A stretch of 40,665 nucleotides of DNA from a virus: IMG/VR virus record IMGVR_UViG_3300038552_000283, positions 1 through 40,665 of that record. The stretch is one strand, 5' to 3'. The notes beneath the pieces are model-generated. The model saw only the letters and a list, made by a program, of their open reading frames with translations, made no database searches and was not told the DNA's origin. Both the position numbers and the translations under genes were made by a program. Position 1 is the stretch's first letter, and the number at the start of each line of letters is the position of its first letter. Shown here one piece after another: positions 8,246-37,215 of this stretch.

Positions 8246-8980
8246 TCAGTTAGGCAGCTTCTTCTTAGGATGAAGCTGAAAAGCTAACTGGTCTCCATAG
8301 AAGAACGCGCGCTTCCAGCCATCCCAAAACACTTCCTTGTTTTTCTTCGCCGCTGCAGATTCGAGCATTCCTTCTATCTTCCATAGAACCTTCTCTTCAA
8401 TATGTTCAAGCAGCTTCTCGTCGAGCCACTGGTAATACTTGTCACCCAAATCGTTCCTCTTCTGCTTTAACTCGTATCTGACATCAGCAGGGAACAAGCT
8501 ATAAAGCGTCTTGTTTAAGAAACCACACACCGCAACAGGACATCCCTTAGACTTGTCCCACTTGATGCCATACATGTCACAGTAAAGCTGCATGAACCGC
8601 TCAGATATCAGCCTATCTCTACCGTTGTTGTAATCAAGTAAGAAGTGTCCTACGAAGACACCCTTCTTGAACTCATTAAGCTCACGTTCCTTCTGCTCGA
8701 AGGCATCGACTAGCTTAAGCTGGCCTTCCTTAGACTTGCGACCTCCGACGAACGGCATAACGAACAGCGCGGCACGCCTGGACAGCTCATACATGGGCTG
8801 AAGCTTACCCTGCTCATCCTCATAATAGGTCTCCGCAAAATCGTCGTCACCCAAATATTTCATACACTTACGAAAAGACCGCATCACATGCGAATGCTCT
8901 CTCGAAAACTCCTTCGAGATAATCAGCGTCGTTGTGTATAGCGTACCGTCTTCTCTAACAAGAATCATATCGTTACTCAT
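8246..8980 (-). CDS. Rha-type regulatory protein with a P63C-like C-terminal domain
   Basis: The 244-residue product has an N-terminal Rha-type domain: a TTTLIISKEFSREHSHVMRS core, then a loop with YEDEQGKLQPMYELSRRAALFVM. The C-terminal half resembles the P63C domain found behind KilA-N/Rha domains in phages (VAVCGFLNKTLYSLFPADVRYEL). Rha proteins are phage regulators or antirepressor-like factors with poorly defined targets. Unusually, this one sits within the tail and ejection gene cluster rather than with the other regulators, and its codon use looks more AT-rich than its neighbours, suggesting later acquisition. A second Rha-type protein lies at 21062-21712. Confidence 0.7.
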   Translation of the reverse strand: MSNDMILVREDGTLYTTTLIISKEFSREHSHVMRSFRKCMKYLGDDDFAETYYEDEQGKLQPMYELSRRAALFVMPFVGGRKSKEGQLKLVDAFEQKERELNEFKKGVFVGHFLLDYNNGRDRLISERFMQLYCDMYGIKWDKSKGCPVAVCGFLNKTLYSLFPADVRYELKQKRNDLGDKYYQWLDEKLLEHIEEKVLWKIEGMLESAAAKKNKEVFWDGWKRAFFYGDQLAFQLHPKKKLPN

Positions 8981-13315: not shown

Positions 13316-14809
13316 TTATTGGCACGCGACAGAGTTCAATGTGAACGACTGTTCCACGAACAATCCCACCCCATCGGCGACTCTTACCGTCACGGGAAAC
13401 GAGGCGATGCATGTCGGCGTGTAAGTTACAAGCCCTGCAGCGCTGATCGTCATTCCTGTGGGCGATTGCGTGAGTGAGTATGTGAGGGTTCCGTTCTCAG
13501 GGTCGGAGGCAGCCACCTGATAACTATACTGATGCCCAACCACTACGCTGTCAGGCGCAACAGACGTGATAACGGGTGGCAGATTGCCGGAGACTGTGGC
13601 CGGTGTGAATTCGACATAGTCCACCCTTCCTCTGGATCGCGCTTGTTGATTCTGGACATAAAGCTGTAGGGTTGAACCTGGCGGAATGCTGACCCCTGTC
13701 TTGCACGCTAGCTTCAGTGGATGCAGATTTGACCCAATTGGATTGGTGACACTACATATGTCAATCCCGCCCACCCTGAACGTGACCGTAGACGCACCAT
13801 CATTCTCCTGGGCTACCCCTATCGCCACATCATAGGCGCCACAAGGCAATGGGGATGTGCGTGTTGCTGTCCCGGTTTGAAGCACGTCGGAGGGAAACAT
13901 GATATAGGGAGGGGACGACACCAGCCCACTCAGTGTCCAGCCCGTTTCGGCCTGCAGGATGACTGGCGTTCCAGTGGGAGGCGGGGGCGGTGGAGTCGCT
14001 TCCCCCGAAGGGTCCACGTCCGCGAAGTGGTCACCCGCATCCGTCCCAGCATCGTAGATTCGGACGTTATCGAGATATTCCACGATATGCGTGGTATCTC
14101 CGGCTATCCCATAGGCCCCCATCTTCAGATAGGGTGTGCCGTCTGAGTCTTCGTGCATATTCGGCCCGGTATGGTCCACTATCTGTGTCCATGTCGCGCT
14201 GGTTCCGGGTTTCAGCCAGACATCGAATATCCCGTTGCTGTCACGCGACGGCACAAAGTGCACTACGTAGTCATACCACTGCCCGTAGGACAGCGGCATC
14301 CACCCCTCAGCCGTGACATCATCATCGACTTCTAGACTCGCTCCGATGCGAAGCGGATCATCCGTGACGTTCAGCGACATGCTGTTTCCGCCGCAGCAGC
14401 CGTTATGCCACTGCATGAGGTAGCCGCCGTCTGCAACATCAGATTCACTTCCAAGGTAGTAGGCAATGCCTAGCCAATAGTGACGCCCTTCGACATACTC
14501 AGCACTTTCGCGCGGAAGTATTTCTGCCCGATTGTCGCTGTTCGCGCACTCCTCGTCCCCGTCTTGCCACTCGATATGGGCCGAACGCGTCCCAGACCTG
14601 ACAGGTGTAGTCACAGCGTACAGCCTATTGGCCGTACAGACATCACTGCCCCACCCCGGGCAGTTATCCTCTCCCTCCTCGTACCAATCCGCGTCGCAGG
14701 CGCCTGTCTCGAACCCACCGTTCTGATCGGGCCCAAATATGTACCCTGCGTCAACAGGGGATGCGATCACGCAGATTGCTGCACACATCATCCATGTATA
14801 CGATTTCAT
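13316..14809 (-). CDS. Secreted polysaccharide lyase with carbohydrate-binding and Ig-like domains
   Basis: The 497-residue product begins with a Sec signal peptide (MKSYTWMMCAAICVIASPVDA, cleavage likely after residue 21 or 22). Residues 25-260 match the jelly-roll heparinase-like polysaccharide lyase pattern: RAEILPRE, YWLGIAYYLGSESD, MQWHNGCCGG, then GQWYDYVVHFVPSRDSNG and YLKMGAYG. A PPPPPP linker follows, a carbohydrate-binding-like module (ILQAETGW to RGRVDYVEFTP) and a C-terminal He_PIG/cadherin-like Ig domain (VVVGHQYSYQVAASDPENG). Many Cys suggest disulfides outside the cytoplasm. Phage depolymerases normally ride on the tail without a signal peptide, so export by the infected host is unusual. 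It overlaps the gene in front by ATGA. Confidence 0.75.
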   Translation of the reverse strand: MKSYTWMMCAAICVIASPVDAGYIFGPDQNGGFETGACDADWYEEGEDNCPGWGSDVCTANRLYAVTTPVRSGTRSAHIEWQDGDEECANSDNRAEILPRESAEYVEGRHYWLGIAYYLGSESDVADGGYLMQWHNGCCGGNSMSLNVTDDPLRIGASLEVDDDVTAEGWMPLSYGQWYDYVVHFVPSRDSNGIFDVWLKPGTSATWTQIVDHTGPNMHEDSDGTPYLKMGAYGIAGDTTHIVEYLDNVRIYDAGTDAGDHFADVDPSGEATPPPPPPTGTPVILQAETGWTLSGLVSSPPYIMFPSDVLQTGTATRTSPLPCGAYDVAIGVAQENDGASTVTFRVGGIDICSVTNPIGSNLHPLKLACKTGVSIPPGSTLQLYVQNQQARSRGRVDYVEFTPATVSGNLPPVITSVAPDSVVVGHQYSYQVAASDPENGTLTYSLTQSPTGMTISAAGLVTYTPTCIASFPVTVRVADGVGLFVEQSFTLNSVACQ

Positions 14810-21061: not shown

Positions 21062-21712
21062 TCAGCCATTACCCAAGAGCTTTGTGCGCTTCCTGATGGA
21101 AAAGGCCCGTAACCTATTCTTGCGCTCTTCATAAGGCATCCTCTCTTCTAGATAGGCACGATTCTGTTCACGCACAAACTTCAACAGGATGGCCTCCTCG
21201 TTCGATAGCTGCGTCTCGTCAATGGCTTCGAACCGACCGGTCACTGCCCAGTTGCACAGCTTGTTCTCAGCCATGTAATGGAACTCGCCCGTTTCCTTCC
21301 CAAGCTCGGCCCGCACCTCAATCAGCGCATCCATCATTGGGTGGTGTGCCGAACGCTTATCCTGTAGCAACGACTTGCGCGGAGGTTCTGCGAATCGTTT
21401 CCCTATCGTGTCCAGCGCCTTCCTGAATTCCTTCACCAGCCGCAGCTTGAAGGCTACGACGATGTCGTTATTCCTGAAGAGCGTGATCAGGAAAGTCGCT
21501 TGGTCCTCGTTCAGGAGGGCTACCTCTACAGGAACTCCACCGTGTTTCCCCATTCGCGTTTCAAACGCCAATGAACCAAGCTCCTCAAACTGGCTATGGT
21601 ACTTTCGGATGAGCGCTAACGTGTTCTTGTGGCTCCTCTCACACCCAAGCGCTACCGCTTCACTCGTGGTCCTGGCTAACCTACCACTTATCTCAACGAT
21701 GTCTGTTTTCAT
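21062..21712 (-). CDS. Rha-family regulatory protein
   Basis: The 216-residue product has the Rha domain pattern in its first 100 residues: RTTSEAVALGCERSHKNTLA, then IRKYHSQFEELG and VALLNEDQATFLITLFRNND, followed by FKLRLVKEFRKALDTIG. Rha proteins are known as phage regulatory proteins that interfere with growth in some hosts. The C-terminal half is helical and basic (YEERKNRLRAFSIRKRTKLL). It lies in the head cluster between the Maf-like protein and the methyltransferase, both overlapping it by a few bases. A second Rha-type protein lies at 8246-8980; the two share only the domain. Confidence 0.75.
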   Translation of the reverse strand: MKTDIVEISGRLARTTSEAVALGCERSHKNTLALIRKYHSQFEELGSLAFETRMGKHGGVPVEVALLNEDQATFLITLFRNNDIVVAFKLRLVKEFRKALDTIGKRFAEPPRKSLLQDKRSAHHPMMDALIEVRAELGKETGEFHYMAENKLCNWAVTGRFEAIDETQLSNEEAILLKFVREQNRAYLEERMPYEERKNRLRAFSIRKRTKLLGNG

Positions 21713-23168: not shown

Positions 23169-24116
23169 TTAAGTCGATGCGACGTGCAGGATCTTGTCCT
23201 CGCCCGCGCTTCCAGTGTTGAAGAAGGGCTCCATCCGCAGGATGCCGTACCAGCCTCCGGTCCGCGACCTTCCCAAATCCTCAGCGAAGGCATCCACACG
23301 CAGCTCTGGAGTCACTGCCTCGGCCAGTCCTACGGCGTCTTCCCCGAAGACAACGCCTTCCCCGCAGACACTGCTCGTTCCAATCTTCCCAAGGGCCGCG
23401 TTGTGATTCGTCTTGATACACCGAATCCCTTCGTACTTCCCAGCCTCGGCATTAAACTTGCCGCTCGGGTCAGTATATTTGTGCCACTCCTCCCAGTCGG
23501 AGTCTCTCATGAGGCCGCGCAACGCTAGCGTCCTGAAGATGCCGACATACGACCCGTCGGACATCGGGGGCACTAGGAGTGTATCGTACATATAGTCCTG
23601 GATTTCTTCGAAGTGCCATCCGTTGAGATTGGCTGTCGCGGATGTCGCAGCCGTCCCCGTGGTAGCGATGCTACGGCTTGTTGCCCCGGTCGGCGTGTAC
23701 TTGATGTACGTGCGCTTGAACGCAGCAGCGGCCAAAGTATCCAGAGAGAGCGTCATTTGCCTCATCAACTGCCGCTGGACACTATTCATCAGGTCGAAAT
23801 GAAGGAGGTCCCTGGCAAATGAGGTAATGGGAACCGCACGCCCAATCTCCTTCACCGTAGCGCTTCCCGTGCTGATGGCGTAGGTGTCTTCCGGGATACG
23901 CTCCGTCTCCACCAGCTCGGGGTCAGTCGGCTCGGCGATTGCCTTAATGCGTGTCCAGGTGACCGTTTCACCCTTCCCGCGACCATATCCACCGACCGGA
24001 GTAACGTGGTCCATAAAGACTGAATTCTCTACCGCAACCTCATATAGCTTTGCGGACAGAGCATGATTTTTCAGGACCCCTGTTTCAACGTCCAGTGTCC
24101 ATGTAAATTGCGCCAT
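23169..24116 (-). CDS. Major capsid protein, N4gp56-like HK97 fold
   Basis: The 315-residue product follows the scaffold gene with a strong ribosome site (GGAGG). The sequence fits the N4gp56 type of HK97-fold capsid proteins: KLYEVAVENSVFMDHVTPVG at the N-terminal arm, GKGETVTWTRIKAI, then AVPITSFARDLLHFDLMNSV (spine helix) and YVGIFRTLALRGLMRDSDW, with AGKYEGIRCIKTNH near residue 225. No delta-domain or protease is present, so scaffolding is by a separate protein. It builds the icosahedral shell and is expected to be the most abundant virion protein. Confidence 0.8.
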   Translation of the reverse strand: MAQFTWTLDVETGVLKNHALSAKLYEVAVENSVFMDHVTPVGGYGRGKGETVTWTRIKAIAEPTDPELVETERIPEDTYAISTGSATVKEIGRAVPITSFARDLLHFDLMNSVQRQLMRQMTLSLDTLAAAAFKRTYIKYTPTGATSRSIATTGTAATSATANLNGWHFEEIQDYMYDTLLVPPMSDGSYVGIFRTLALRGLMRDSDWEEWHKYTDPSGKFNAEAGKYEGIRCIKTNHNAALGKIGTSSVCGEGVVFGEDAVGLAEAVTPELRVDAFAEDLGRSRTGGWYGILRMEPFFNTGSAGEDKILHVAST

Positions 24117-25027: not shown

Positions 25028-25270
25028 CTACCTCCTGTACCATGGAGGAAGCACGATTTGGCGATCCGCTTTAGCGCCCTCCTCAAGCTTTCTCATGTCC
25101 CGTATCGTCATGGCCAGACATTCCATAACGCCCTTTGCCAGGGTTAGCACATACTCGGCCTTCTTATCAGGGTCAGCGGTTCGAGCGGCGGGGTAGTGTT
25201 CTCCGGCCCAGGTCGTCCACTCGTTAAACTTGCTCACCGTTTCTTTAGACATGTGTTGGTTCCATTCCAA
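25028..25270 (-). CDS. Hypothetical 80-aa protein downstream of the portal
   Basis: The start at ATG 25270 has AGGGGG upstream; an inner ATG (25252) lacks a ribosome site. It overlaps the portal gene by 26 bases. The product is helical (SKFNEWTTWAGEHYPAART, AEYVLTLAKGVMECLAMTIR). Unknown family. Position suggests an assembly function. Confidence 0.55.
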   Translation of the reverse strand: MEWNQHMSKETVSKFNEWTTWAGEHYPAARTADPDKKAEYVLTLAKGVMECLAMTIRDMRKLEEGAKADRQIVLPPWYRR

Positions 25271-26978
25271 AGCTGCCCCCTAACGACGCTACTGTAGGCT
25301 GTTGCGGCTGGGGCGGTTGTGGCTGTTGCTGTTGCTGTTGCTGCATCTGCTGTTGCTGTGGGGACGCCATGAGTTCGGAGGGGTCGATGTTCAGATGTTT
25401 TAATAGCTGCCCTAGAATCTTCTCTACGTCATACTTTTGGAAAAATACCTGCGACAGCATCGGATTCCCACCCACCACCTGTAGCAGCACGAGCATCTTC
25501 TGGAAGTCTCTGGATCTGGCCAGGCTGGCCGATATGCCGCGAACCTTGAAGGTACAGGTATGCCCAAGCTTATCCATCCGCTCATCCATAGGCATCCTGG
25601 CCAGTGCAACCATGTCTTTCAAGCCCATGCTCTCTTGCAGCTTCGACAGCGGGATGGAATCGCTAAACTGAAGGATGATCCACCATGCCTTTCTAAGCAC
25701 GTTCTCCAGCGCCTGCTCGATGTCCATCGTGATGCTATCCAGCATCACTGACGCGGACTGCTGCGCCTCCGTCACCTCGGTCGCAGTCACTTTCTTGGGA
25801 GGAAGCTGCCCTAGCCGGATGTCGTTCCCAAAGGTCGCCGCCTGGAACTCCCTGTCCAGCGCCTCGAACATCGCCATGGATTCGCGTGGCACCTGCCCCG
25901 TGGTGGATTGGCTGATGGCGCTCACCCCGGGTGGCGCGGCATCATTCACTGCCAGCGTCGCCCCCTGTGGAATCCCATTGGATACCTGGCTTGGGTCTTC
26001 TAGCCAGCCCAGCCTCACTTCCCGCGTCCCCCATACTTCGGCGATACTCCCATCCACCATGAGGCTGAATAGCTCATTCATAGTGCGATTCAAGGGTGAG
26101 GCCGCATCCCACACGGCCTTGTGCCACACACTGAAGGGCACACGCAGAATGGGCATCGTGCTAAACGGCGTCCCCCCATGCCGCCAAGGATTCTCCATGG
26201 GCTTGCGAACGAGTTCTGTGTCATTTCCGAGTGTCAGACAGATGTTCTTCTTCCAGGTCTTGTCGTTGTCATCGATGATGGATCCCCAGTACTCGGTGAT
26301 TTTCACCGTCTTGCGGGCTTTACTGCTCTTCACATCCACCCCCGTCTCCTCAATCTCCCTGCGGTGCAGCAAGGTATCCGTTCTCTTGGCGCCCTCAAGG
26401 TGGGTAATTTTCGACATCTGGTAGACGCCCTTCTCTGCCAGCTCCACGGCCTGATGGTAGTCCATCTCGATCTCGTGGATCTCGTAGAGCGATTGGCCGG
26501 ACGCGTCAGGGTAGTAGTCCTCGGGACGGACGAGATCAATATAGAGGCGGAATTCATCCTCCTCCTCCCGCCCGTACACTTTGAAAATCGCGATGGATTC
26601 CAGCAGGGCTATCTTGATGGCCTCCGCGATCACGCTCCCGAAGTCTCGGGTTTCCGTCCTGTAGGGGATATTTTCCAGAAAACACAGCATCAGCTTCCTA
26701 ACGCTGTGAGGAGAGATTGGGGACGATTCGGGCAACTCCACCGTAAACCAATCGCCGTACTGGCTGATGGCTCGACGAATGAACGCGGCAAACGTTTCGA
26801 CCGCGGTTGTAGTTTTAGGCAGGAACTCGGTGGACTGACCCTCTATCTTGTCACTCCAATCCTGCTGCCCGTGGTAGACAGCGCGGTTCTCTGCATTCAT
26901 TAGAATGCGATGCCTACGCGCGCGTTCAGCCTCTTGTCGGAATCCGATAACCTGTTGAATGATTTCGCTTTCTTCCAT
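25245..26978 (-). CDS. Portal protein, podovirus type
   Basis: The 577-residue product is the size of P22/T7-type portals. Recognisable stretches are SVIAEAIKIALLESIAIFKV, YIDLVRPEDYYPDASG, KITEYWG, ASPLNRTMNELFSLMVDGSI and KKVTATEVTEAQQSASVMLD, the last being the usual TATEV-containing helix of the portal clip and wing. A Gln/Pro-rich C-terminus (residues about 547-567) could be a flexible tail inside the head. Twelve copies form the ring at the head vertex through which DNA is packaged and ejected, docking with the terminase and the tail adaptor. It begins the minus-strand structural genes; the ribosome site before the ATG is weak. Confidence 0.85.
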   Translation of the reverse strand: MEESEIIQQVIGFRQEAERARRHRILMNAENRAVYHGQQDWSDKIEGQSTEFLPKTTTAVETFAAFIRRAISQYGDWFTVELPESSPISPHSVRKLMLCFLENIPYRTETRDFGSVIAEAIKIALLESIAIFKVYGREEEDEFRLYIDLVRPEDYYPDASGQSLYEIHEIEMDYHQAVELAEKGVYQMSKITHLEGAKRTDTLLHRREIEETGVDVKSSKARKTVKITEYWGSIIDDNDKTWKKNICLTLGNDTELVRKPMENPWRHGGTPFSTMPILRVPFSVWHKAVWDAASPLNRTMNELFSLMVDGSIAEVWGTREVRLGWLEDPSQVSNGIPQGATLAVNDAAPPGVSAISQSTTGQVPRESMAMFEALDREFQAATFGNDIRLGQLPPKKVTATEVTEAQQSASVMLDSITMDIEQALENVLRKAWWIILQFSDSIPLSKLQESMGLKDMVALARMPMDERMDKLGHTCTFKVRGISASLARSRDFQKMLVLLQVVGGNPMLSQVFFQKYDVEKILGQLLKHLNIDPSELMASPQQQQMQQQQQQQPQPPQPQQPTVASLGGSFGMEPTHV

Positions 26979-27311: not shown

Positions 27312-27405
27312 TAGACTGCGTCAGCCTGATGCCTATGTACGACAGTATCATGACGATGAGGGATAGCACCCAAATCGTAGTCACTAGCATTCCGAGCCAC
27401 CACAT
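27301..27405 (-). CDS. Tiny single-span membrane protein (34 aa)
   Basis: The ATG at 27405 is preceded by GGAAAGGAGAGTCA, the strongest Shine-Dalgarno site in this area, which decides the gene. The product is MWWLGMLVTTIWVLSLIVMI then LSYIGIRLTQSNEQ: one continuous hydrophobic helix from residue 2 to about 26, with a short polar end. It overlaps the nuclease gene in front and the 65-aa gene behind. Small phage membrane proteins of this type can regulate host membrane enzymes, act as pinholins or exclude other phages; none can be chosen here. Confidence 0.6.
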   Translation of the reverse strand: MWWLGMLVTTIWVLSLIVMILSYIGIRLTQSNEQ

Positions 27406-27812
27406 TGACTCTCCTTTCCGGTCTTTGCAATGCCCAATACCCAGTGGAAGAACGCCTCCTCGCCCATCTGGACAAGCCACTTATCGCCCTGATCGCAGAT
27501 GATTGTCGAGTCCAGCTCACCTATCCGGATGAAGAACCTCCATGGGGAGAAGTTCTTCCTCCATGCGAGGGCTGGAATGTGTTGTTCTCCAGCCTCTTCG
27601 CACGCCTGCTTCCACCATGTGCCAATCTTAGGCTTCTCTCCCCGCTTCACCTGAACATAGATTCGGCCCGCTAAAATGACATCCGTCCCTCCGGCCCGCG
27701 CCTGATCGAAGTTTCGGAAGACCGCGGCGTCTCCTAGGCGCGCCTGGGCTAGCATCTCGAACTCATGCTCTCCTCGCCTGCCCTTCTCCCTAGAATGCGC
27801 TTTTCTTAGCAT
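27384..27812 (-). CDS. PD-(D/E)XK nuclease (Holliday-junction-resolvase-like)
   Basis: The start at ATG 27812 has AGAAGG before it and overlaps the cytidylyltransferase gene by 23 bases; the frame to 27857 is less likely. The 142-residue product shows the PD-(D/E)XK order: REKGRRGEHEF (Glu15 in helix 1), ARAGGTDVILAGRIY (Asp44) and VQVKRGEKP (Gln54 and Lys56). This is the active-site set of Hjc- and Mrr-like nucleases. Phage proteins of this kind resolve branched DNA before packaging or process recombination intermediates. The C-terminus (ESQCGGSEC) has Cys residues. Its place between sugar operon and portal is consistent with a role before packaging. Confidence 0.7.
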   Translation of the reverse strand: MLRKAHSREKGRRGEHEFEMLAQARLGDAAVFRNFDQARAGGTDVILAGRIYVQVKRGEKPKIGTWWKQACEEAGEQHIPALAWRKNFSPWRFFIRIGELDSTIICDQGDKWLVQMGEEAFFHWVLGIAKTGKESQCGGSEC

Positions 27813-28338
27813 TGCAAAGCACCTTCTGATAATCCACTTCATCATTGATGTCCACATGATCCACCTGCTGGAGAACTATCATCCCTGGAATGTCCCAGTC
27901 ACCGCGAGCGCGTAACAGGTCGCGATCAGCCCAGTATACGCAGCCTTCACTAATCCAAAGGGAAGGCATGCCCTGTGTGCAGAAGACTCTATAGGACGTC
28001 TGAAGGATGTGTTTCAGTGAATCATGTTGCCCGGCAGCCGGGTAGATGCAGCAGTCAGCCCCGACCTCTATCGCCATCTCAGCGGTCGTCGCGTTTCCGC
28101 TCCCATCGGATGGCCTCACGAACTCTGCTATGTCGGATGGATGGATGGAATATCGCCGATAGGCATCGGCGAGCATGGAGGTATATCCCTCGTCAGTGGA
28201 CACTATCACCTGGGTGAAAATACCCGACTCAACTGCAGCATCCACCACCCGTACAAACAGTGGCCGCCCACCGATGGGTAGGATGTTCTTGAAGGGAAGA
28301 CGCCGACTGAAGAGACGGCATGGAATCATCGCTTTCAT
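27790..28338 (-). CDS. pseF-like: CMP-nonulosonic acid synthetase (PseF/NeuA-type cytidylyltransferase)
   Basis: The 182-residue product has the NeuA/PseF/KdsB nucleotidyltransferase signature at the N-terminus, IPCRLFSRRLPFKNILPIGG (residues 5-24), with the RxxK-N CTP-binding pattern. IVSTDEGYTSMLA follows, where the family has the sugar-binding STD motif, then a C-terminal VDINDEVDYQK, matching the ID(I/T)xxxxD metal-binding end. Its reaction is CTP plus nonulosonic acid to CMP-sugar, the last cytoplasmic step. It is shorter than usual (about 220-235 aa), with the central dimerisation region reduced. It overlaps the SAF-type synthase in front by ATGA. It could accept pseudaminic, legionaminic or sialic acid; the operon favours pseudaminic. 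Confidence 0.75.
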   Translation of the reverse strand: MKAMIPCRLFSRRLPFKNILPIGGRPLFVRVVDAAVESGIFTQVIVSTDEGYTSMLADAYRRYSIHPSDIAEFVRPSDGSGNATTAEMAIEVGADCCIYPAAGQHDSLKHILQTSYRVFCTQGMPSLWISEGCVYWADRDLLRARGDWDIPGMIVLQQVDHVDINDEVDYQKVLCNAKKSAF

Positions 28339-29330
28339 AATCCATATACCCCGATAGGTTCACCCTCCCGTATAACGCGTCCCGCCACGGGTAGCCGTGA
28401 GTTCGGGGTCAGGTGGTCAGGCCCCATACGGGGGCGCTTCCACAAGACCTGTTCTGGACGAATAGGCTCTCCCTTCAAGATATCCACAGCAGCATACCCT
28501 CCACGCCTCCACTTTGTCGGGTTCACAGTAATAGAAGACGTTTCCCTCTGTTCCTGTGCTCTCACCGCCTGCACATACTTCTTCATTTCCGATGGCGGCA
28601 GTGACATGGCGTGCTCTGGACCGTCATCCCACTTGTCCAGTGTGATAGTCTTTTCCAGGTAATCCACAACGGGAGCCGCGGCAAGACTGGCGGCCCAGCT
28701 CTCACAGTGGTCAGAGAATGCCACGGTGCCACACACGGACCGAAGCTCACCGATTCGGTCTAGGCGGGCTCGCACCGTCGAGATATCATACCCCTTCGGG
28801 CAGTGATGGAGTACGAACCTGTTACGTGGAATACACCGTCTCTTTACCAGATTTACCACTCGCTCGATATCCTCCTTATCCGCATTTCCCGTATCCACAT
28901 GGAGAACCCCCACCTCATCTTGAACAACGCTTTGCAGCGCGCGGATGATGAGAGGTGTGTAGTCAATGTCTGAGGAGGATATCTTGATGTGCTCCAGCGC
29001 GCACCGCTTCGCGATTCCAAGCCCGAAGTCGTCCGCTACCGTGGTCATGCGCTCTATCCCAAGTTTACTAGCAAACTGAAACAGCTCTATCCACTCCTCC
29101 TCGCTCATGCATCTGCGCTTCAGCAGATGGTAAATGGGCTCACTTCTAGGCATCCCGCACGCGGATGTCCACTCGAACACTTCATCCCGGTGTGAAGTAG
29201 CAATCAGTTGATCCAGGTCGAACGTCTGAAACTTCACAATGTCAGCGCCTGCCGCCACAGACTCACGAACCAAAGCTTTCGCCGACTCTAACCCTGTATG
29301 ATTAGCGCCTGCTTCAAAAATAATCTTCAC
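28335..29330 (-). CDS. pseI-like: Nonulosonic acid synthase with SAF domain (PseI/NeuB type, GTG start)
   Basis: The 331-residue product starts at GTG 29330. The TIM-barrel has the family landmarks: EAGANHTGLESAK, ADIVKFQTFDL, HIKISSSDIDYTPL, VLHVDTGNADKEDI, HHCPKGYD, FSDHCESW and EKTITLDKWDDGPEHAMSL. The C-terminal SAF (antifreeze-like) domain is present from about residue 272 (WRRGGYAAVDILKGEPIRPE), which normally caps the partner's active site in the dimer. It condenses phosphoenolpyruvate with a six-carbon amino sugar to a nine-carbon nonulosonic acid. As the complete enzyme, it is the better candidate for the working synthase of this operon. It overlaps the WbqC gene by 17 bases. Confidence 0.8.
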   Translation of the reverse strand: MKIIFEAGANHTGLESAKALVRESVAAGADIVKFQTFDLDQLIATSHRDEVFEWTSACGMPRSEPIYHLLKRRCMSEEEWIELFQFASKLGIERMTTVADDFGLGIAKRCALEHIKISSSDIDYTPLIIRALQSVVQDEVGVLHVDTGNADKEDIERVVNLVKRRCIPRNRFVLHHCPKGYDISTVRARLDRIGELRSVCGTVAFSDHCESWAASLAAAPVVDYLEKTITLDKWDDGPEHAMSLPPSEMKKYVQAVRAQEQRETSSITVNPTKWRRGGYAAVDILKGEPIRPEQVLWKRPRMGPDHLTPNSRLPVAGRVIREGEPIGVYGL

Positions 29331-29946
29331 AAATGTCTTCTCCTGTCAAGAAATGATGAATCGCGGACAGTTGCAGCCCATCCACCGGACGTTCTATCTG
29401 AACATCGATTCCAGCGTCTCTGAATAGTCCCATATCGAGATAGTGGCTCGACATCGGGCCCGCGATATAGGTCGTCGCTTCCACCTCCTGGCAAATCTTA
29501 AGGACAAGCTCACTCTTGCGGTAGCCATGCGCTTCCGGCATGTCGATGGACTCGACTATCATCGGGAGACATCGACCCGCTAGAAACTCCATGGACAGCC
29601 TGGCAATGTCTGACACATACTCATGCTCACGCATCATGTCTAGGAAGCGACATGCATATTTTATCCTATCTTTGTCAAGATATGAACTCCTTAGCATTGA
29701 CTTATGACTATCTATCCAGTCATTTCCATTCACCTTGACATCATGTATAGAGTCTCCAAGATGGACGTTCACCGGGATAGTCATCCACTTAGGGCCTCCG
29801 TTCATCCATATCTTGTTTCGGTTGATGTAGCTCCCCTTCTCAAACTGGACATGGTTCAGGATGACGTGGATGTCGGACCGCAGGATGCGCTGCAGGACGA
29901 TGGGTGAGGGGAGATACCCAGGCTGGTGGATGGAGACGGTCCTCAT
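29314..29946 (-). CDS. WbqC-family protein
   Basis: The 210-residue product opens with SIHQPGYLPSPIVLQRILRS, then DIHVILNHVQFEKGSYINRN and KIWMNGGPKWMTIPV, the characteristic N-terminal pattern of WbqC-like proteins. HKSMLRSSYLDKD follows. WbqC-like genes occur in O-antigen and capsule clusters, with an acyl or aminoacyl transfer to an amino sugar suggested; the chemistry is not settled. Beside a PIG-L deacetylase and within a nonulosonic acid operon, a role in changing an N-acyl group on the sugar is plausible. It overlaps the deacetylase gene by ATGA. Confidence 0.7.
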   Translation of the reverse strand: MRTVSIHQPGYLPSPIVLQRILRSDIHVILNHVQFEKGSYINRNKIWMNGGPKWMTIPVNVHLGDSIHDVKVNGNDWIDSHKSMLRSSYLDKDRIKYACRFLDMMREHEYVSDIARLSMEFLAGRCLPMIVESIDMPEAHGYRKSELVLKICQEVEATTYIAGPMSSHYLDMGLFRDAGIDVQIERPVDGLQLSAIHHFLTGEDICEDYF

Positions 29947-30554
29947 AGGATTTCCAGCTCCAAACGAAACTTTTCCGCGAAGGGCGCGGCGATTTCAGCA
30001 CCGTCCACCTCGGCCTGCTTGTAAACGACGGTCGCAGCCCTAGGCCCAAACAGGGATGAATAGCAATCCACGGCTTTTGCCTTGGCCCGTACGTCATCGA
30101 TGGACAGGTTCGCATAGACGTTCGGAGTATAGGTGCGCCCTGCCCAGCCATTGCCTGGGATGGAGAATGTCAGGAGACGCGACACTCCCGTGTTCTTCCA
30201 GGCCCGGCAGGCGATGCGAGTCGCGTGGAAGACCATCCGATGATCTGCGTTGATATCGCTATCATCATGAGTCAAGACAGTTTCTGGACGATTCACAGCT
30301 AACAGCTCAGCTATCGCGTCTGCCATATGGGCGATATGCGACTCACAGCATGCCTGATCAGGCCACACCATCGCACTCACATCCCATTCACACCCCAGCG
30401 CTTCGCATGCCTGCTCGAACAGTCTTACAGGAGTAGACGTCACCACCATCGGACAGACGACGACTCCAGACTCCCTCCTAGAATGGATATATCCTCCGCA
30501 TCCCAGCGCCTCGTCATCCATATGCGCAGTTATCACCAGAACTTGGACAGCCAT
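29943..30554 (-). CDS. PIG-L/LmbE-family deacetylase
   Basis: ATG 30554 is chosen because AGGAG lies about six bases upstream; an ATG two codons earlier sits too close to it. The 203-residue product has the PIG-L metal and catalytic motif ITAHMDDEALGCGG (AHxDDE) and a second motif THDDSDINADHR with the third zinc ligand. These enzymes remove N-acetyl groups from GlcNAc-type sugars or related small molecules. In this operon the likely substrate is an N-acetylated intermediate or the final nonulosonic acid, leaving an amine for the WbqC-family protein encoded next. It overlaps the acetyltransferase gene in front. Confidence 0.75.
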   Translation of the reverse strand: MAVQVLVITAHMDDEALGCGGYIHSRRESGVVVCPMVVTSTPVRLFEQACEALGCEWDVSAMVWPDQACCESHIAHMADAIAELLAVNRPETVLTHDDSDINADHRMVFHATRIACRAWKNTGVSRLLTFSIPGNGWAGRTYTPNVYANLSIDDVRAKAKAVDCYSSLFGPRAATVVYKQAEVDGAEIAAPFAEKFRLELEIL

Positions 30555-31030
30555 TTCCATCTCCTAGGCGCTACGCGCCGCATCCTCACGAAGTCTGTTC
30601 GACTCACTATCTGGAATCCTGCCGCCTGGAACATGCAAATCGCCGCGCTGTTCTCTGGACGGACCACGGCCTCTACCCTATCTATTCCCTGAGAGAAGAC
30701 CTCACGGCATAGCCTATCGACACACCAACATCCCACTCCGCGCCCCCTGAACATCCGATGAAGGAATATCGATACTTCACACGTGATGGCATCGAAGCAC
30801 AAAACACCTGCACGCTCACCCTCGACGCGCACCAGAAACCCATAGAAGCTTTCTCTCTGCCCTGCGTGCTTCCAAAAGAATGCATTGTGCTCATCGCTGA
30901 CCGTCGAGCGATTCAGGGAATTCCATACTACGCTCGGATCATTGCGAACATCGCCTATCCACGCGATGTCCTCAGCGCTGAACGCACTGCTATCCAACCA
31001 CTCTACGCCAACCATTTCTACGCCAACCAT
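30533..31030 (-). CDS. pseH-like: GNAT N-acetyltransferase (PseH type)
   Basis: The 165-residue product has the GNAT acetyl-CoA loop FRGRGVGCWCVDRLCREVF (R/Q-x-x-G-x-G) near residue 95 and AVVRPENSAAICMFQAAGF, the C-terminal beta-bulge pattern of RimI/PseH-like enzymes. In pseudaminic acid synthesis PseH acetylates the 4-amino group of the UDP-aminosugar made by PseC. The product starts MVGVEMVGVEW because of a 15-bp tandem duplication; the start may be either ATG (31030 or 31015). The N-terminal part (DIAWIGDVRNDPSVVWN) is typical of the family. It sits between the truncated NeuB-like gene and the deacetylase. Confidence 0.75.
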   Translation of the reverse strand: MVGVEMVGVEWLDSSAFSAEDIAWIGDVRNDPSVVWNSLNRSTVSDEHNAFFWKHAGQRESFYGFLVRVEGERAGVLCFDAITCEVSIFLHRMFRGRGVGCWCVDRLCREVFSQGIDRVEAVVRPENSAAICMFQAAGFQIVSRTDFVRMRRVAPRRWKWLSKFW

Positions 31031-31032
31031 TT
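31003..31032. repeat. Perfect 15-bp tandem duplication at a gene junction
   Basis: CTACGCCAACCATTT is present twice in direct tandem (31003-31017 and 31018-31032). On the minus strand each copy carries both a TAG stop for the 272-aa synthase-like gene and an ATG for the acetyltransferase, so the duplication copies the junction itself and adds five residues to the acetyltransferase N-terminus. Confidence 0.9.
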
Positions 31033-31836
31033 CTGTCTCGACCTCATCTCTTCACTGGAATGGCCCAGAGTCTCTTCGCCCATCCTATTCATCGTCTCAT
31101 GGACTGCCGCGGCGAACTTCACCATCCCATACCTATCGATGGCAACCCGATCACCTATCGCGGCGAACTCCCGGCTTAGCGCGACATGCTGCTCGATGAC
31201 TACAGCACCAGCCGCGATGGCAAGCCTCACCATGGAAAAGGTCGTATCCTCCCACGCTCCATGATGGCTATATCCGATGGGTATGGCTGGGTAGGCTCTC
31301 CTCATGGCGTGGATTCGTCCCAGGTGCGCATGGGCTGGCAGGGTCGGATACTGGCTCGTGCAGTGCAGTATCGCCCTGACCCGGCATTGCCCATCCATCA
31401 GGATGTCCATAGCTCGCCTAAGCTCGTCTTCCAACAGCATCCCGGTGGATGCGACTACATCGACCGGACATCTTGAAAGCGCCTGCAGGAAAGGTTCGTC
31501 CAGCATCATGTCTGAACCTACTTTGATGAAGTTTGGCCCCAGCGCCATACACTCTTGCAGCCTAGATAGGGTCGGCGACACGCCCCATGGAACCTTTTCT
31601 GCCTGGCAGACGTCCACCGCCTTCTTCAGTAGTGCCGGTTTCATGCGGTACCTTTCGAAGTAGTCTCTGGAGTCGATTCCGAACGTCGTGGGTGTTCGGT
31701 TCTGGATAAAGTCATCCATCTCATAGGCCTGAAACTTGATCGCGCTGAATCCCACATGCTTGACGAACGCAATCGTCCTTTCGACCACGCTTTCATTATC
31801 CGCATGATTGTCAGCAAGCTCTGCTATTGTGTACAT
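31018..31836 (-). CDS. NeuB/PseI-family synthase-like protein lacking the SAF domain
   Basis: The 272-residue product follows a GGAGAG site. It has the NeuB barrel landmarks: ELADNHADNESV, FSAIKFQAYE, FIKVGSDMMLDE, VASTGM, ILHCTSQYPTLPAHAH, GYSHHG and VVIEQHVALSRE. It ends after the barrel, with no C-terminal SAF domain, and has His where family members have Asp in GYSDH and Gln for Lys in IEKH. It may be an active relative for another substrate, an inactive partner of the full-length synthase, or a decayed copy kept in frame. The family call is secure; activity is not. Confidence 0.75.
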   Translation of the reverse strand: MYTIAELADNHADNESVVERTIAFVKHVGFSAIKFQAYEMDDFIQNRTPTTFGIDSRDYFERYRMKPALLKKAVDVCQAEKVPWGVSPTLSRLQECMALGPNFIKVGSDMMLDEPFLQALSRCPVDVVASTGMLLEDELRRAMDILMDGQCRVRAILHCTSQYPTLPAHAHLGRIHAMRRAYPAIPIGYSHHGAWEDTTFSMVRLAIAAGAVVIEQHVALSREFAAIGDRVAIDRYGMVKFAAAVHETMNRMGEETLGHSSEEMRSRQKWLA

Positions 31837-32500
31837 TCATACTCTCCAGTATGTTGATGATCCCATCCTCATCACTTCCTATTCCCATCTCCAGGCAGGC
31901 ATCACGTATCCAGGCACGCTGCTCCCACGTAGTCTCCAGCGCCGCCTGCAGCCCCTGGATGTCAGGGATGACCGCTACACCTGCATGGGTTTTCAGCACC
32001 TTGCCCACTAACCACTGGGTTGGGCCTGACGGCAAGATAACCTGTTGGATGCCCAGTGAGGCTCGCTCCCACGCAGCCACTCCTCCGTCTCCTAGGACGA
32101 CTCCACCGTGCTCTAGCATCAGCGGGTAATTGGCAGGGCAGGACGCTAGTCTCTGCACCTCCCATCCTAGGAGATCAACCCCGAACGCGATTCCACGGTC
32201 GATGTAGAGTTCCCTCTTGGCCGACTCGCAACACTTTGGGAGGATTAAGACGTCCCGATTCAGAGGATAGATTTCAGGGTTCAGCGGAAGGCACAGCCCT
32301 AACCCAACCACATCCGACAGGATAAGCACATCCGGATCCATGTCTGTGTGAACTATTTCACTCATCGGAACATCCACTACTAAGACGTCCCAGGGGCCGC
32401 GAACGATGCTATGCCCACGCTCCAAAGCCCGGGCTTTCACTGCCATGCATCGCCTGCGGTGCCCGAGGCCGCTGTTTGATATCCTAAAGGCTATGCGCAT
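31811..32500 (-). CDS. pseG-like: UDP-sugar hydrolase, PseG type
   Basis: The start is ATG 32500, overlapping the aminotransferase stop by 10 bases; the longer open frame is a shadow. The 229-residue product has RISNSGLGHRRRCMAVKARA (GxGHxxRC, with the presumed catalytic His14) and VVLGDGGVAAWERASLGIQQ before PSGPTQW, matching the GT-B-like PseG pattern. PseG removes UDP from the diacetamido sugar nucleotide, giving the free hexose for PseI. It is somewhat shorter than bacterial PseG (about 275 aa), mostly in the N-terminal lobe. The pathway context of PseB, PseC and PseH supports the call, and it is one of the genes that argues for pseudaminic rather than legionaminic acid. Confidence 0.7.
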   Translation of the reverse strand: MRIAFRISNSGLGHRRRCMAVKARALERGHSIVRGPWDVLVVDVPMSEIVHTDMDPDVLILSDVVGLGLCLPLNPEIYPLNRDVLILPKCCESAKRELYIDRGIAFGVDLLGWEVQRLASCPANYPLMLEHGGVVLGDGGVAAWERASLGIQQVILPSGPTQWLVGKVLKTHAGVAVIPDIQGLQAALETTWEQRAWIRDACLEMGIGSDEDGIINILESMNVHNSRAC

Positions 32501-33507
32501 AGAGCACGCTCCAGGGCCGATACAACTGTCTTCACGTCCATCTTCGTCATGTGAACGTGCAGCGGGAGAGACACACACCTGTCCCAGTACGGATTGAGCG
32601 CCAGCATTCCTACGACGGGAATCAGCGGCGGGTAGTGGATCGCAGTCTCTATGCCCTGCGCCTCCAATGCCTTTCTAACGGCATCCCGTCCATCCACGAA
32701 GACCACCATGAGATGGCAGGAAGAGGCCTCGAGGTCGAACTCCTGATACTGAACCCCAATGGCTTTTAGCTGCTCTCGGTAGACGCGCACGAGTTCCCTC
32801 CGCTTTTCTAGGAACTCATCCAGGCGCTTCAACTGCGACAGCCCAAGGGCCGCAGACAGCTCTGGCATTCTGAAGTTTAGGGCTAGGCTGCGAACGAACG
32901 TGTATGGGTTGTCAGAGGCATAGTCCCTGCCGATGTCCCGGTAGAGACGCAGCTCGCGTGCCACCTCCTCATCCCGTGTGCATATCATCCCGCCTTCTCC
33001 TGTCGTAATGCTTTTCGAAGGATGGAACGAGAAACACGTCACCATCTTCTTTGTGGCATCAGAGCCCACAGGAAGCCCGTCAGGGTGCGTTGCGCCGAAG
33101 GCATGGCAAGCATCCTCTATCGTGTCCATACCCCACTCCAGGGCCGCCAGAGCCCCTCCTATGTGGGTTGGGATGTAGGTAATGTTCCGTCCTGTCCTTC
33201 CCTCGCACACACCGTTCTGATTCACGTTGAGAATGACATGCGGAATCTTTAGGACATACGACGCATGCAGGATGGATGGGAAGGTCACCCTGGGGATTCC
33301 TATGAGGGAGGGTTGTAGCACTTGTAGGGACAGGAACAGCGCCGCGGTGCCGCTGCTGACCGCCACCGCGTGGGAGGCTCCTACGCGCTCACACACCGCT
33401 GCTTCGAATTCCTTAACATGCTCCCCATGGGATAGCCTACCGCTCATGGCGTTTGCGACGGCATTCACGTCTCCCAGGCTGATATCGTGCTCACATAGAT
33501 GTATCAT
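32491..33507 (-). CDS. pseC: PLP-dependent sugar aminotransferase (PseC, DegT/DnrJ/EryC1 family)
   Basis: The 338-residue product has the family order: a GxHVKEFE segment (residues 28-35), AVAVSSGTAALFLSL (PLP phosphate site), TIEDACHAFGA (Asp132 to the PLP ring nitrogen), and CFSFHPSKSITTGEGG with the Schiff-base Lys165. The HPxKxITTGEGG form is characteristic of PseC/PglE-like aminotransferases. The enzyme transfers an amino group from glutamate to C4 of the keto sugar made by PseB. Near the C-terminus, IETAIHYPPLIPV is the usual substrate-site loop. The ATGA overlap joins it to the dehydratase gene. Confidence 0.85.
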   Translation of the reverse strand: MIHLCEHDISLGDVNAVANAMSGRLSHGEHVKEFEAAVCERVGASHAVAVSSGTAALFLSLQVLQPSLIGIPRVTFPSILHASYVLKIPHVILNVNQNGVCEGRTGRNITYIPTHIGGALAALEWGMDTIEDACHAFGATHPDGLPVGSDATKKMVTCFSFHPSKSITTGEGGMICTRDEEVARELRLYRDIGRDYASDNPYTFVRSLALNFRMPELSAALGLSQLKRLDEFLEKRRELVRVYREQLKAIGVQYQEFDLEASSCHLMVVFVDGRDAVRKALEAQGIETAIHYPPLIPVVGMLALNPYWDRCVSLPLHVHMTKMDVKTVVSALERALCA

Positions 33508-34463
33508 GGCGATACCTCAGCAACGCGTAGGCGAAGGGCCTCTAGCCCCATCACTGCGCTGGACGAAGACACTGCGCTCGACAGCGGCTCACCCCTGACC
33601 TGAACCGCGTCCCGAAAGGTAGTGATGGGACAGAGTACGATTGCACGCCCGCTCTTCACCGCCCAGGGTGTCTCATCCTCCGATACCAGCTCTTCATCCA
33701 GTTTCTCGCCAGGCCTGAGACCGATGATTCGAGTCTCCCTCTCTCCAGATATCACCTCCGCTAGGTCTTCCACTCTGAAGGCGGATAGCGGTGGGATGTA
33801 GACCATGCCGCTTTCGGTGTGAAGCCTGCCAAGAACGTAATCAGTGAATCTCACTGCGTCCATGAGCGTCATCCAGAACCGCGTCATCCTGCGGTCGGTG
33901 ATCGTCAGTGGTTCACCGTCCTGGGCCTGTTTTCTGAACAGGCTGAGCACGGATCCCCGCGAGTCGATGACGTTGCCCCACCGCGTGACGCCGATGTGCG
34001 TGCCATGGCTTCCCTGATTCGCCAGGGCGACCGCCAACCGCTCGGCCATCATCTTGGATGCCCCATAGGTGTTCAGCGGCCCGCATGCCTTATCGGAGCT
34101 TAGGACGATACACTTCGAGGCTTGCATCTTGATGGCTGCCTTCAGAACGTTCAGCGTGCCCAGCACGTTCGTTTTCACAGCCTCCTCTGGATTGTATTCG
34201 ATGGCGTCCACACGCTTCAGAGCGGCGGCATGGATAACCACATCCACACCCTCACAGGCAGCCATCATGCGCTCTGCGTCCCGCACATCCCCCAGCAGGA
34301 GCCGCATCTGCTTCGAATGTCCGAACTCGCACGCCATCTCTGCTTGCTTTAGTTCGTCACGGGATAGGACCCTAACTACACATCCAGGATCCTTTTCCAG
34401 GATGTACCTGGCAAACGCCTTCCCATAAGAGCCCGTTCCGCCCGTAATGAGATAGGTCATCAT
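33504..34463 (-). CDS. pseB: UDP-GlcNAc 4,6-dehydratase / 5-epimerase (PseB)
   Basis: The 319-residue product has the NAD(P)-binding LITGGTGSYGKAFARY (residues 5-20), VLSRDELKQAEM, LLGDVRDAERM, HAAALKRVDAIEYNP and the catalytic segment LSSDKACGPLNTYGASK, which gives Asp124, Lys125, Tyr133 and Lys137 as in PseB. TRWGNVIDSRGSVLSLF follows, and the C-terminal IGLRPGEKLDEELVSEDE is the family's usual end. It makes UDP-2-acetamido-2,6-dideoxy-beta-L-arabino-hexos-4-ulose, the first committed intermediate of pseudaminic acid. It is the first enzyme gene of the operon, overlapping the SANT-like gene in front by ATGA. The start may be either of two adjacent ATGs. Confidence 0.9.
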   Translation of the reverse strand: MMTYLITGGTGSYGKAFARYILEKDPGCVVRVLSRDELKQAEMACEFGHSKQMRLLLGDVRDAERMMAACEGVDVVIHAAALKRVDAIEYNPEEAVKTNVLGTLNVLKAAIKMQASKCIVLSSDKACGPLNTYGASKMMAERLAVALANQGSHGTHIGVTRWGNVIDSRGSVLSLFRKQAQDGEPLTITDRRMTRFWMTLMDAVRFTDYVLGRLHTESGMVYIPPLSAFRVEDLAEVISGERETRIIGLRPGEKLDEELVSEDETPWAVKSGRAIVLCPITTFRDAVQVRGEPLSSAVSSSSAVMGLEALRLRVAEVSP

Positions 34464-34765
34464 GACTCCAGTCTCCTACTCACCCCAAGACGCATTGCCT
34501 TGGTTACAATCGACTGCTTCGACCTTCTACGCCCGATGGCCTTCATCACGGCAGCAATCCCTCCCTCCGGGTATAGCTTGCGGATTAAGGCGCACTCTTC
34601 ATCACTGAAGTAGTAGCCGCTTCGGTAGATGCATTCTTTGTTCGCTTTATGCTCCACTGACCCGAAGCTCCTATTCATCTGAATAGCAACCCGTTTAGCG
34701 GGCATACTCGGATAGAGTTCCCGCAACTGATTCACTTCCTCACTCGTCCAGTATTTCCTGGCCAT
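34460..34765 (-). CDS. Small DNA-binding protein with two Myb/SANT-like repeats
   Basis: The 101-residue product has two similar helix-rich units: YWTSEEVNQLRELYPSMPAK with SVEHKANK (residues 6-43) and FSDEECALIRKLYPEGGIAA with SIVTKAMRLGV (residues 53-96). Each fits the WTxEE..L..LYP..S(V/I)..KA pattern of phage HTH domains related to Myb/SANT or GcrA-like modules. GAGG lies seven bases before the ATG. It overlaps the excisionase-like gene in front by 34 bases and PseB by ATGA, so it is expressed with the sugar operon and could regulate it. Confidence 0.65.
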   Translation of the reverse strand: MARKYWTSEEVNQLRELYPSMPAKRVAIQMNRSFGSVEHKANKECIYRSGYYFSDEECALIRKLYPEGGIAAVMKAIGRRRSKQSIVTKAMRLGVSRRLES

Positions 34766-34941
34766 CTTGTTCCTCTTCTCTTGCTAAAACTAACAACCTG
34801 CTCACGGCTCAGCATGATGTACCTCTCAGCGCTGTAATGAGCAGAGAGATTCCCGGTTGAAATGTAGTACCGCACCATCCTGGGCGTCACACCCAGGATG
34901 GCAGCGGCCTCCTTAGTTGGTATAAGGTCTGATATATCCAT
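34732..34941 (-). CDS. Small HTH protein (MerR/excisionase-like), predicted leaderless
   Basis: The 69-residue product carries a winged helix of the MerR/Xis/AlpA type: LIPTKEAAAILGVTPRMVRY followed by YISTGNLSAHYSAER, and a basic tail (RRGTRWPGNTGRVRK). Such proteins bind DNA as regulators or recombination directionality factors; no integrase is seen in the window. Only six bases separate the -10 box of promoter B from the ATG, so the transcript should begin at the start codon with no ribosome site. The HTH would be lost with any later start, so the ATG at 34941 is secure. Confidence 0.7.
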   Translation of the reverse strand: MDISDLIPTKEAAAILGVTPRMVRYYISTGNLSAHYSAERYIMLSREQVVSFSKRRGTRWPGNTGRVRK

Positions 34942-34947
34942 TCCATG

Positions 34948-34976
34948 AGTATACCATATCCATTCCTTCGTGGGAA
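34948..34976 (-). promoter_or_regulatory. Promoter, copy B of the TTCCCACGAAGGAA module
   Basis: The 14-mer lies at 34963-34976. On the minus strand it is followed by a 17-nt spacer (from its -35-like TTCCCA) and an extended -10, TGG-TATACT (TATACT at 34948-34953). The start of transcription is predicted at or next to the ATG at 34941. It drives the HTH gene and, with no clear terminator behind, probably the sugar operon and possibly the structural genes. Confidence 0.75.
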
Positions 34977-34984
34977 CTACACCT

Positions 34985-35013
34985 CTCCCTGCCTCGTGGG
35001 TTGAGGCAGGGAG
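34985..35013 (-). terminator. Strong hairpin between the secreted-protein gene and promoter B
   Basis: CTCCCTGCCTC (34985-34995) and GAGGCAGGGAG (35003-35013) form a perfect 11-bp stem with a 7-nt loop, ten bases after the stop of the 107-aa gene. No T-run follows on either strand, so it is an incomplete intrinsic terminator; it may act with a factor or protect the mRNA end. Confidence 0.55.
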
Positions 35014-35382: not shown

Positions 35383-35411
35383 AGTATACCACACCCATTC
35401 CTTCGTGGGAA
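35383..35411 (-). promoter_or_regulatory. Promoter, copy C of the TTCCCACGAAGGAA module
   Basis: The 14-mer lies at 35398-35411, then a 17-nt spacer and TGG-TATACT (TATACT at 35383-35388). A start near 35376 gives a leader of about 28 nt before the ATG at 35347, which contains GGAG. Copies B and C also share TGG directly after the 14-mer and TGG before the -10. Confidence 0.75.
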
Positions 35412-36907: not shown

Positions 36908-36926
36908 CTTAATCCTAGCGATGTCC

Positions 36927-37020
36927 TGTTCCTACCTGTTCCTACCTCAGTGGGCTAAAATAGCCCAGTAGGAACTTAGTGGCACTAGGGTTGTTCCTAC
37001 TGTTCCTACCTGTTCCTACC
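36927..37020 (+). repeat. Left iteron cluster (TGTTCCTACC)
   Basis: Copies lie at 36927-36936, 36937-36946, 36992-37000 (last base missing), 37001-37010 and 37011-37020. One inverted copy (GTAGGAAC) lies at 36968-36975. Between them TGGGCTA-AAA-TAGCCCA (36951-36967) forms a small hairpin. Confidence 0.8.
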
Positions 37021-37052
37021 TTTTTAGATAACTATATACATGAGGAGGCATA

Positions 37053-37084
37053 TATTTACATACATACATGTATGTATGTAAATA
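37053..37084. repeat. Perfect 32-bp palindrome
   Basis: The left half TATTTACATACATACA (37053-37068) is followed directly by its exact reverse complement (37069-37084). It sits in the AT-rich centre between the facing iteron clusters and could extrude as a cruciform or be bound by a dimeric initiator. Confidence 0.9.
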
Positions 37085-37173
37085 GGGTGATCGTGTATAA
37101 AAGGTTGACCCCCCCCCTAAGGTAGGATCAGGCAGGAACATCGTTGATTTAAAATGGAAAACCGACGTGGGAA

Positions 37174-37215
37174 GGTAGGAACAAGGTAGGAACAAGGTAG
37201 GAACAGGTAGGAACA
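37174..37215 (-). repeat. Right iteron cluster (inverted, GGTAGGAACA)
   Basis: Four near-contiguous copies at 37174-37183, 37185-37194, 37196-37205 and 37206-37215, about one helical turn apart. Two degenerate copies lie to their left (GGTAGGAT at 37121 and GGCAGGAACA at 37131). Confidence 0.8.

Follow-up and report, generated by a model that had tools for sequence, protein, structure and literature searches.

The 40,665 bases of IMG/VR virus record IMGVR_UViG_3300038552_000283, analysed here over their full length and referred to as the window, contain a 6.7 kb cassette of nine open reading frames (ORFs) on the minus strand (27790-34463), which is almost certainly a phage-borne operon of the nonulosonic acid (NulO) type. 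Each ORF shares 4-28 bases with its neighbour, as the original prediction of nine consecutive overlapping minus-strand genes had it. According to family matches, the order of transcription is PseB, PseC, a PseG-like protein, a NeuB protein without SAF domain (NeuB1), a GNAT acetyltransferase, a PIG-L family protein, a WbqC family protein, a NeuB protein with SAF domain (NeuB2) and a CTP_transf_3 protein. All nine frames are open and have kept a coding-type codon composition, and the genes are apparently co-transcribed. The cassette appears to direct the synthesis of an acidic sugar of the cell surface that is akin to sialic acid. Judged by its sequence, it very probably belongs to the pseudaminic acid (Pse) type. 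The complete reading proposed here, a condensed bacterial Pse cassette with NeuB2, PIG-L and WbqC whose product would be used on the host surface, is held with slightly better than even confidence.

The first gene of the cassette (33504..34463, minus strand) codes for a PseB-like inverting UDP-N-acetylglucosamine (UDP-GlcNAc) 4,6-dehydratase of 319 amino acids (PF02719, Polysacc_synt_2, 9.8e-80). Its best equivalog model is TIGR03589 with 307 bits, which does not reach the cut-off of 408, followed by FnlA with 213 and LegB with 52 bits. The best sequence match in the PDB is the UDP-GlcNAc C6 dehydratase 2gn4 (256 bits), and the catalytic Asp-Lys-Tyr (SDK...Y triad) is present in SSDKACGPLNTYG. 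The second gene (32491..33507, minus strand) encodes a PseC-like aminotransferase of 338 amino acids (PF01041, DegT, 4.7e-61), for which TIGR03588 PseC is the best model (210 bits, cut-off of 423 not reached; LegC 126 bits) and in which the catalytic Lys165 lies in HPSKSITTGEGG. Both the inverting dehydratase and the aminotransferase of the Pse pathway are predicted to be encoded. Since the PseB and PseC models outscore those of LegB (307 vs. 52 bits) and LegC (210 vs. 126 bits), the comparison of Pse with legionaminic acid (Leg) loci, which had been suggested earlier, favours the Pse type.

The third gene (31811..32500, minus strand) codes for a candidate PseG-like UDP-sugar hydrolase of 229 amino acids, with a start most likely at 32500 and not at 32578, which was assigned by its conserved motifs and a PseG profile, for which 59 relatives from bacteria and plasmids were used. 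It is the top ORF of the window against this profile, although weakly, with 14.4 bits (E=1.5e-4 over the window ORFs), the next ORF reaching 0.6 bits. The motifs GLGH (GLGHRRRC) and WER (GDGGVAAWER) as well as a C-terminal Gln are aligned in register. A structural model of moderate confidence (mean pLDDT 69) has its best solved matches among GT-B glycosyltransferases, but it was built on the PseG alignment and is therefore not independent.

Two proteins of the NeuB family are encoded in the cassette. NeuB1 (31018..31836, minus strand; PF03102, 6e-35) is a SAF-less NulO synthase candidate of 272 amino acids, and NeuB2 (28335..29330, minus strand; PF03102, 4e-36) is a divergent, SAF-bearing paralogue of 331 amino acids. 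Their residues were compared in a census of 194 aligned NeuBs, with numbering and roles which we take to be those of the meningococcal enzyme. NeuB1 retains every barrel residue checked (E25, K53, Q55, K129, S132, S154, Y186, H215, E234 and H236) and has Ser at position T110, likewise found in 43 of the 194 proteins, whereas NeuB2 is altered at metal and phosphoenolpyruvate (PEP)-site residues (S154D, N184K and H236T). In the phylogenetic tree, NeuB1 groups on a very long branch with the NeuBs of bacterial WbqC clusters (support 98/91), and NeuB2 falls into a clade with those of loci L116, L158 and L169 (100/98; larger NeuB2 clade 97/89). No single protein of the window combines an intact barrel site with SAF, the TIM barrel plus SAF architecture of PseI/NeuB. 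The SAF-bearing protein had originally been taken as the synthase and the other one as a NeuB-like extra. This assignment is reversed here, because the catalytic residues and the phylogeny both favour NeuB1 as the likely synthase, with NeuB2 as the extra protein.

NeuB2 belongs to a subfamily, defined here by S154D and H236T, which forms a clade apart from NeuB1 and occurs beside a canonical NeuB in some pse loci. To our knowledge, no function has been described for this paralogue. It is rare, being found in 5 of 397 other Pseudomonadota and in 1 of 296 other genomes sampled from the phylum of the Desulfobacterales, and in four of the six genomes not picked by WbqC it lies beside a canonical NeuB with PseG and NeuA. 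The carriers are L116, L158, L169, L099, L111, L123, L176, L016 and the window (28335-29330). One conceivable arrangement is a two-chain synthase, a domain-swapped heterodimer in which NeuB1 would provide the catalytic barrel and NeuB2 the SAF domain that carries Arg314. A complementary pair of this kind is also seen in L176, an unrelated phage cluster, where one NeuB is intact but SAF-less and its neighbour is a NeuB2 that has SAF but no metal ligands. However, SAF stays on NeuB1 in the bacterial NeuB2 loci and no partner is seen for many of the viral SAF-less NeuBs, so that a heterodimer is rather doubtful for the window and was rejected as a general rule for SAF-less NeuBs. Alternatively, NeuB2 may be an unrecognised NulO tailoring enzyme derived from the synthase fold.

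NeuB1 is followed, as in bacterial loci, by the GNAT gene (30533..31030, minus strand), which occupies the PseH position. The protein of 165 amino acids is certainly a member of the GNAT family (PF13302, 8e-10) and carries the motif RGRGVG. The next gene (29943..30560, minus strand) encodes a PIG-L family de-N-acetylase of 205 amino acids (PF02585, 3.4e-16) with the metal motifs AHMDDE and DDSDINADH. It is followed by a gene for a WbqC family protein of 210 amino acids (29314..29946, minus strand; PF08889, 5.6e-30). No solved relative of this protein was found by sequence, and the best Foldseek match of its model is 4wbd (BshC) with E=1.8e-3 and a TM score of 0.46. In the synthesis of bacillithiol, BshC follows a PIG-L enzyme. 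This weak fold similarity is suggestive of a kinship of WbqC with BshC, which was not supported by a profile-profile comparison with ten BshC proteins that gave nothing. A literature search on WbqC together with PIG-L and pseudaminic acid found nothing useful. The last gene (27790..28338, minus strand) codes for a shortened PseF/NeuA-like CMP-sugar synthetase of 182 amino acids, which scores above the cut-off of PF02348 (CTP_transf_3, 2.7e-13) and reaches 49 of the 206 bits needed for TIGR03584 PseF. The family identities read from the sequence in the original prediction are borne out by profile search for PseB, PseC, both NeuBs, GNAT, PIG-L, WbqC and CTP_transf_3, with PseG as the exception, and the motifs quoted for PseB, PseC, PseG and GNAT are all present.

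A search for WbqC relatives yielded 80 genome loci. Of 85 loci from bacteria and plasmids, 71 contain NeuB at a distance of at most 7 kb from WbqC, 70 PIG-L, 57 PseG, 54 NeuA, 46 PseC and 36 PseB, and WbqC and PIG-L usually flank NeuB in bacteria. The locus L116 of a Deltaproteobacteria metagenome-assembled genome holds the same nine families as the phage cassette, contiguously and in the order PseB, PseC, NeuB2, NeuA, PseG, NeuB1, GNAT, WbqC and PIG-L. The frequency of NeuB and PIG-L near WbqC and the gene order of L116 indicate that PIG-L and WbqC belong to a NulO variant. PIG-L, WbqC and NeuB2 appear to be parts of one bacterial NulO cassette and no loose additions, and the natural reading of the PIG-L/WbqC pair would be a de-N-acetylation followed by a different substitution. 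The phage cassette shares its families and the PseG-NeuB1-GNAT-(WbqC/PIG-L) neighbourhood with bacterial Pse loci containing PIG-L and WbqC (L116; L158, Xenophilus; L098, Pseudomonas viridiflava; L092, Mariluticola plasmid). It differs from them in being reordered (NeuB2-NeuA last, PIG-L before WbqC) and shortened, in a NeuB1 without SAF and in its flanking phage genes. Compared to the classical PseB-PseC-PseH-PseG-PseI-PseF pathway of Helicobacter and Campylobacter, it has one candidate for each of the six steps, but additionally contains PIG-L, WbqC and NeuB2, and its synthase candidate lacks SAF.

The claim of an essentially complete Pse pathway holds insofar as all six steps have a candidate, three of which rest on the shortened PseG and NeuA and the SAF-less NeuB. 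None of the six reaches its NCBIfam equivalog cut-off. From the sequences, the chances that the cassette is active through to the CMP-NulO are about even. Several findings weigh against such activity and against the proposed use of its product. The PseG candidate has no match in family libraries and is, compared to a bacterial median of 343 amino acids, about 110 residues shorter; NeuB1 lacks SAF, the carrier of Arg314; GNAT scores 28.7 bits against the PseH model TIGR03585 with its cut-off of 93; NeuA has lost about 50 internal residues (bacterial median 228.5 amino acids) and has Asn in place of one of two C-terminal metal-binding Asp residues. In addition, a transferase for NulO was not recognised in the scanned proteins of the window, which do not comprise all small ORFs.

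These losses could mean that the cassette is decaying or has been cut to its first half, with PseB/PseC and GNAT making a UDP-amino sugar and the shortened PseG, NeuA and NeuB1 leaving the pathway incomplete. In line with this, the lengths of PseG, NeuA, WbqC and NeuB1 fall below those of even the shortest relatives in the bacterial set, PIG-L and PseC have lengths near its minimum, and the Asp-to-Asn exchange affects a metal position. However, decay is at odds with nine open, tightly overlapping frames of coding-type codon composition and with the motifs that survive in every shortened protein. Furthermore, SAF-less NeuBs with an intact barrel are common in viral loci (43 of 99, from L009-L088, L176-L191 and L296-L298) compared to 1 of 88 in the set from bacteria and plasmids, with the reservation that the entries are not independent of each other and that most of the bacterial set was chosen by WbqC. 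They are the rule in three sister phages, whose NeuBs lack SAF and have kept the residues of the metal and PEP sites. As SAF-less NeuBs are common in viruses, the shortening looks like phage streamlining, and decay is considered unlikely.

The window is a bacteriophage genome and not a bacterial fragment, as virion and replication genes lie around the cassette, namely those for portal, capsid, virion transglycosylase, tail fibre, primase/helicase, RusA and Rha-type regulators. The phage is podovirus-like. The cassette is located between phage control genes and capsid genes and overlaps phage genes at both ends: pseB shares 4 bases with a gene for a D5-like/GcrA-like phage regulator (34460..34765, minus strand; phrog_323, 5e-12), and neuA shares 68 bases with the downstream gene for a RusA-like resolvase (27384..27857, minus strand; phrog_244, 1e-11). 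The codon-usage distance between the cassette and the structural genes is 0.128, compared to a mean of 0.133 between halves of the structural set. These overlaps and the phage-like codon usage point to a long residence in the phage and argue against an assembly chimera or bacterial contamination in a viral contig, as do the long branches and the NulO genes in other members of the capsid family. Even though the cassette clearly descends from bacterial loci and a near-identical second contig was not found, such an artefact is highly improbable.

The phage family is defined by the major capsid protein (23169..24116, minus strand; phrog_1357, 1e-11), of which at least 80 relatives with 52-62% identity are encoded on contigs of up to 48 kb. 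NulO-type genes were found in 5 of 20 capsid-family contigs, with NeuB and NeuA in three, NeuA in one and WbqC with PIG-L in one; in L281, WbqC and PIG-L lie about 4 kb upstream of the portal gene. That one phage family has such genes repeatedly, and with different chemistries, is the best indication of the trait's importance to the phage, and NulO synthesis is possibly a strategy used repeatedly within this group of phages. The sister phages L296, L297 and L298 carry NeuB and NeuA islands, of which those of L296 and L297 look, by reading, NeuC-type and not Pse-type, with a short-chain dehydrogenase/reductase (SDR) protein and a dehydrogenase-like protein.

In IMG/VR, a single motif scan identified NeuB in at least 99 contigs. 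At least four of eight families are present in 47 of 96 viral loci, a count that includes some near-duplicate contigs and relies on broad profiles for PseB, PseC and GNAT. The IMG/VR clusters L176, L179, L086/L181, L178 and L180 contain WbqC, PIG-L, PseB, PseC, NeuB and NeuA together, like the window, and no PseG is recognisable in viral clusters other than the window. Terminase genes adjoin L176 and L179, and a portal gene also adjoins L179. The portal of the window was not found in ten viral WbqC contigs, which therefore represent other phage types. In L086, a formyltransferase gene (10981-11532, plus strand; PF00551, 2e-16) between NeuB and WbqC/PIG-L suggests N-formyl products. By contrast, a tblastn search with bacterial and viral NeuBs, which may miss diverged NeuBs, gave matches in 3 of the 50,697 phage records deposited, and one of these three is listed under a bacterium. 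The view that a full route would be unusual agrees with the deposited phages, among which the cassette is very rare, but less so with uncultured viruses, among which it is less exceptional. Single-protein searches with NeuB, PseG, portal and primase of the window in viral or genome collections gave nothing or very distant matches.

The operon is headed by a small ORF which is HTH-like by reading (34732..34941, minus strand) and follows directly after a promoter-like element of 29 bp (34948..34976, minus strand), identified as a consensus match only. A second copy at 35383-35411 is 93% identical. Both copies have identical -35/-10-like hexamers, a TG before the -10 hexamer and a small gene directly downstream, and upstream of the first there is a hairpin with a 12-bp stem (34985-35013). 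Between a ribbon-helix-helix-like gene and the primase gene, iteron-like repeats in direct and inverted orientation (TGTTCCTACC; 36926..37215) possibly form a replication origin. The portal protein is encoded at 25245..26978 (minus strand; phrog_332, 1e-24; PF23899, 2e-13) and two Rha/antirepressor-type regulators at 8246-8980 and 21062-21712 (both minus strand). A terminase beside the portal, as in the sister phages, was sought in the window and none was seen; an ORF of 110 amino acids (111-443, plus strand) has a weak terminase large subunit match (2e-7). Finally, a protein with a polysaccharide lyase domain and Ig-like domains (13316-14809, minus strand; PF14099, 3e-22) is possibly a virion depolymerase, encoded in the same phage as the surface-sugar cassette.

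The genes with their order, families and residues, the residence in the phage and the bacterial counterpart allow us to propose activities, a product and its use. PseB and PseC would convert UDP-GlcNAc to a 4-amino-4,6-dideoxy-altrose sugar, GNAT would N-acetylate this product, and PseG would free the sugar from UDP. The SAF-less NeuB1 would then condense the free sugar with PEP to a Pse-type NulO, which the PseF/NeuA-like protein would charge with CMP. PIG-L probably strips an N-acetyl group, after which WbqC and/or NeuB2 may tailor the sugar, so that the product is likely a derivative and not plain Pse5Ac7Ac. As no transferase was recognised in the phage, host transferases are proposed, which would probably place the sugar on surface glycans and lead to a receptor change or a shield against competing phages. 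Host-surface remodelling is the likeliest use, and we regard the use of the product on the host surface as evenly poised.

Decoration of the virion or the phage DNA had also been suggested. The operon is transcribed towards the structural genes, with RusA and portal next to its end, and its product may be made with the virion. However, no evidence for such decoration and no DNA-modifying glycosyltransferase gene were recognised in the proteins scanned, and in bacteria this gene set is surrounded by genes for glycosyltransferases, exporters and polysaccharides, which makes this use quite unlikely. The genes might instead top up an existing host NulO pathway, giving more flux and no new sugar. 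The lack of a recognised transferase, the pse loci of many bacteria and other phage clusters without recognisable PseG, which may depend on host enzymes, fit this explanation; a candidate for every step together with tailoring genes is more than a top-up needs, and we consider it improbable. Remodelling of the host surface with a sugar made by the cassette itself remains the preferred interpretation.

The prophage genes EpaA/EpaB of Acinetobacter baumannii act on host-capsule pseudaminic acid, as shown by NMR (PMC12053666), and are a precedent for the alteration of this sugar by phages. They are two modifying genes which depend on the host pse locus, whereas the cassette is a candidate for a whole pathway. 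Phage DLP4 and its relatives were reported to have a NeuB-type domain in their lysis module (PMC6469090), and NeuB-like genes are listed in a virome table (PMC3877843). These reports have in common with the window the NeuB-like genes in viral sequence, but concern isolated genes or reads, and no pathway was described.

Phages are known that alter host surface sugars with one or two genes. If the reading proposed here is true, some phages bring their own surface sugar chemistry instead of editing that of the host. The cassette would offer natural minimal versions of PseG, NeuB and NeuA for testing enzyme requirements. It also draws attention to a NeuB paralogue that is rare and uncharacterised, and to PIG-L and WbqC as a pair that regularly forms part of pse loci in bacteria.

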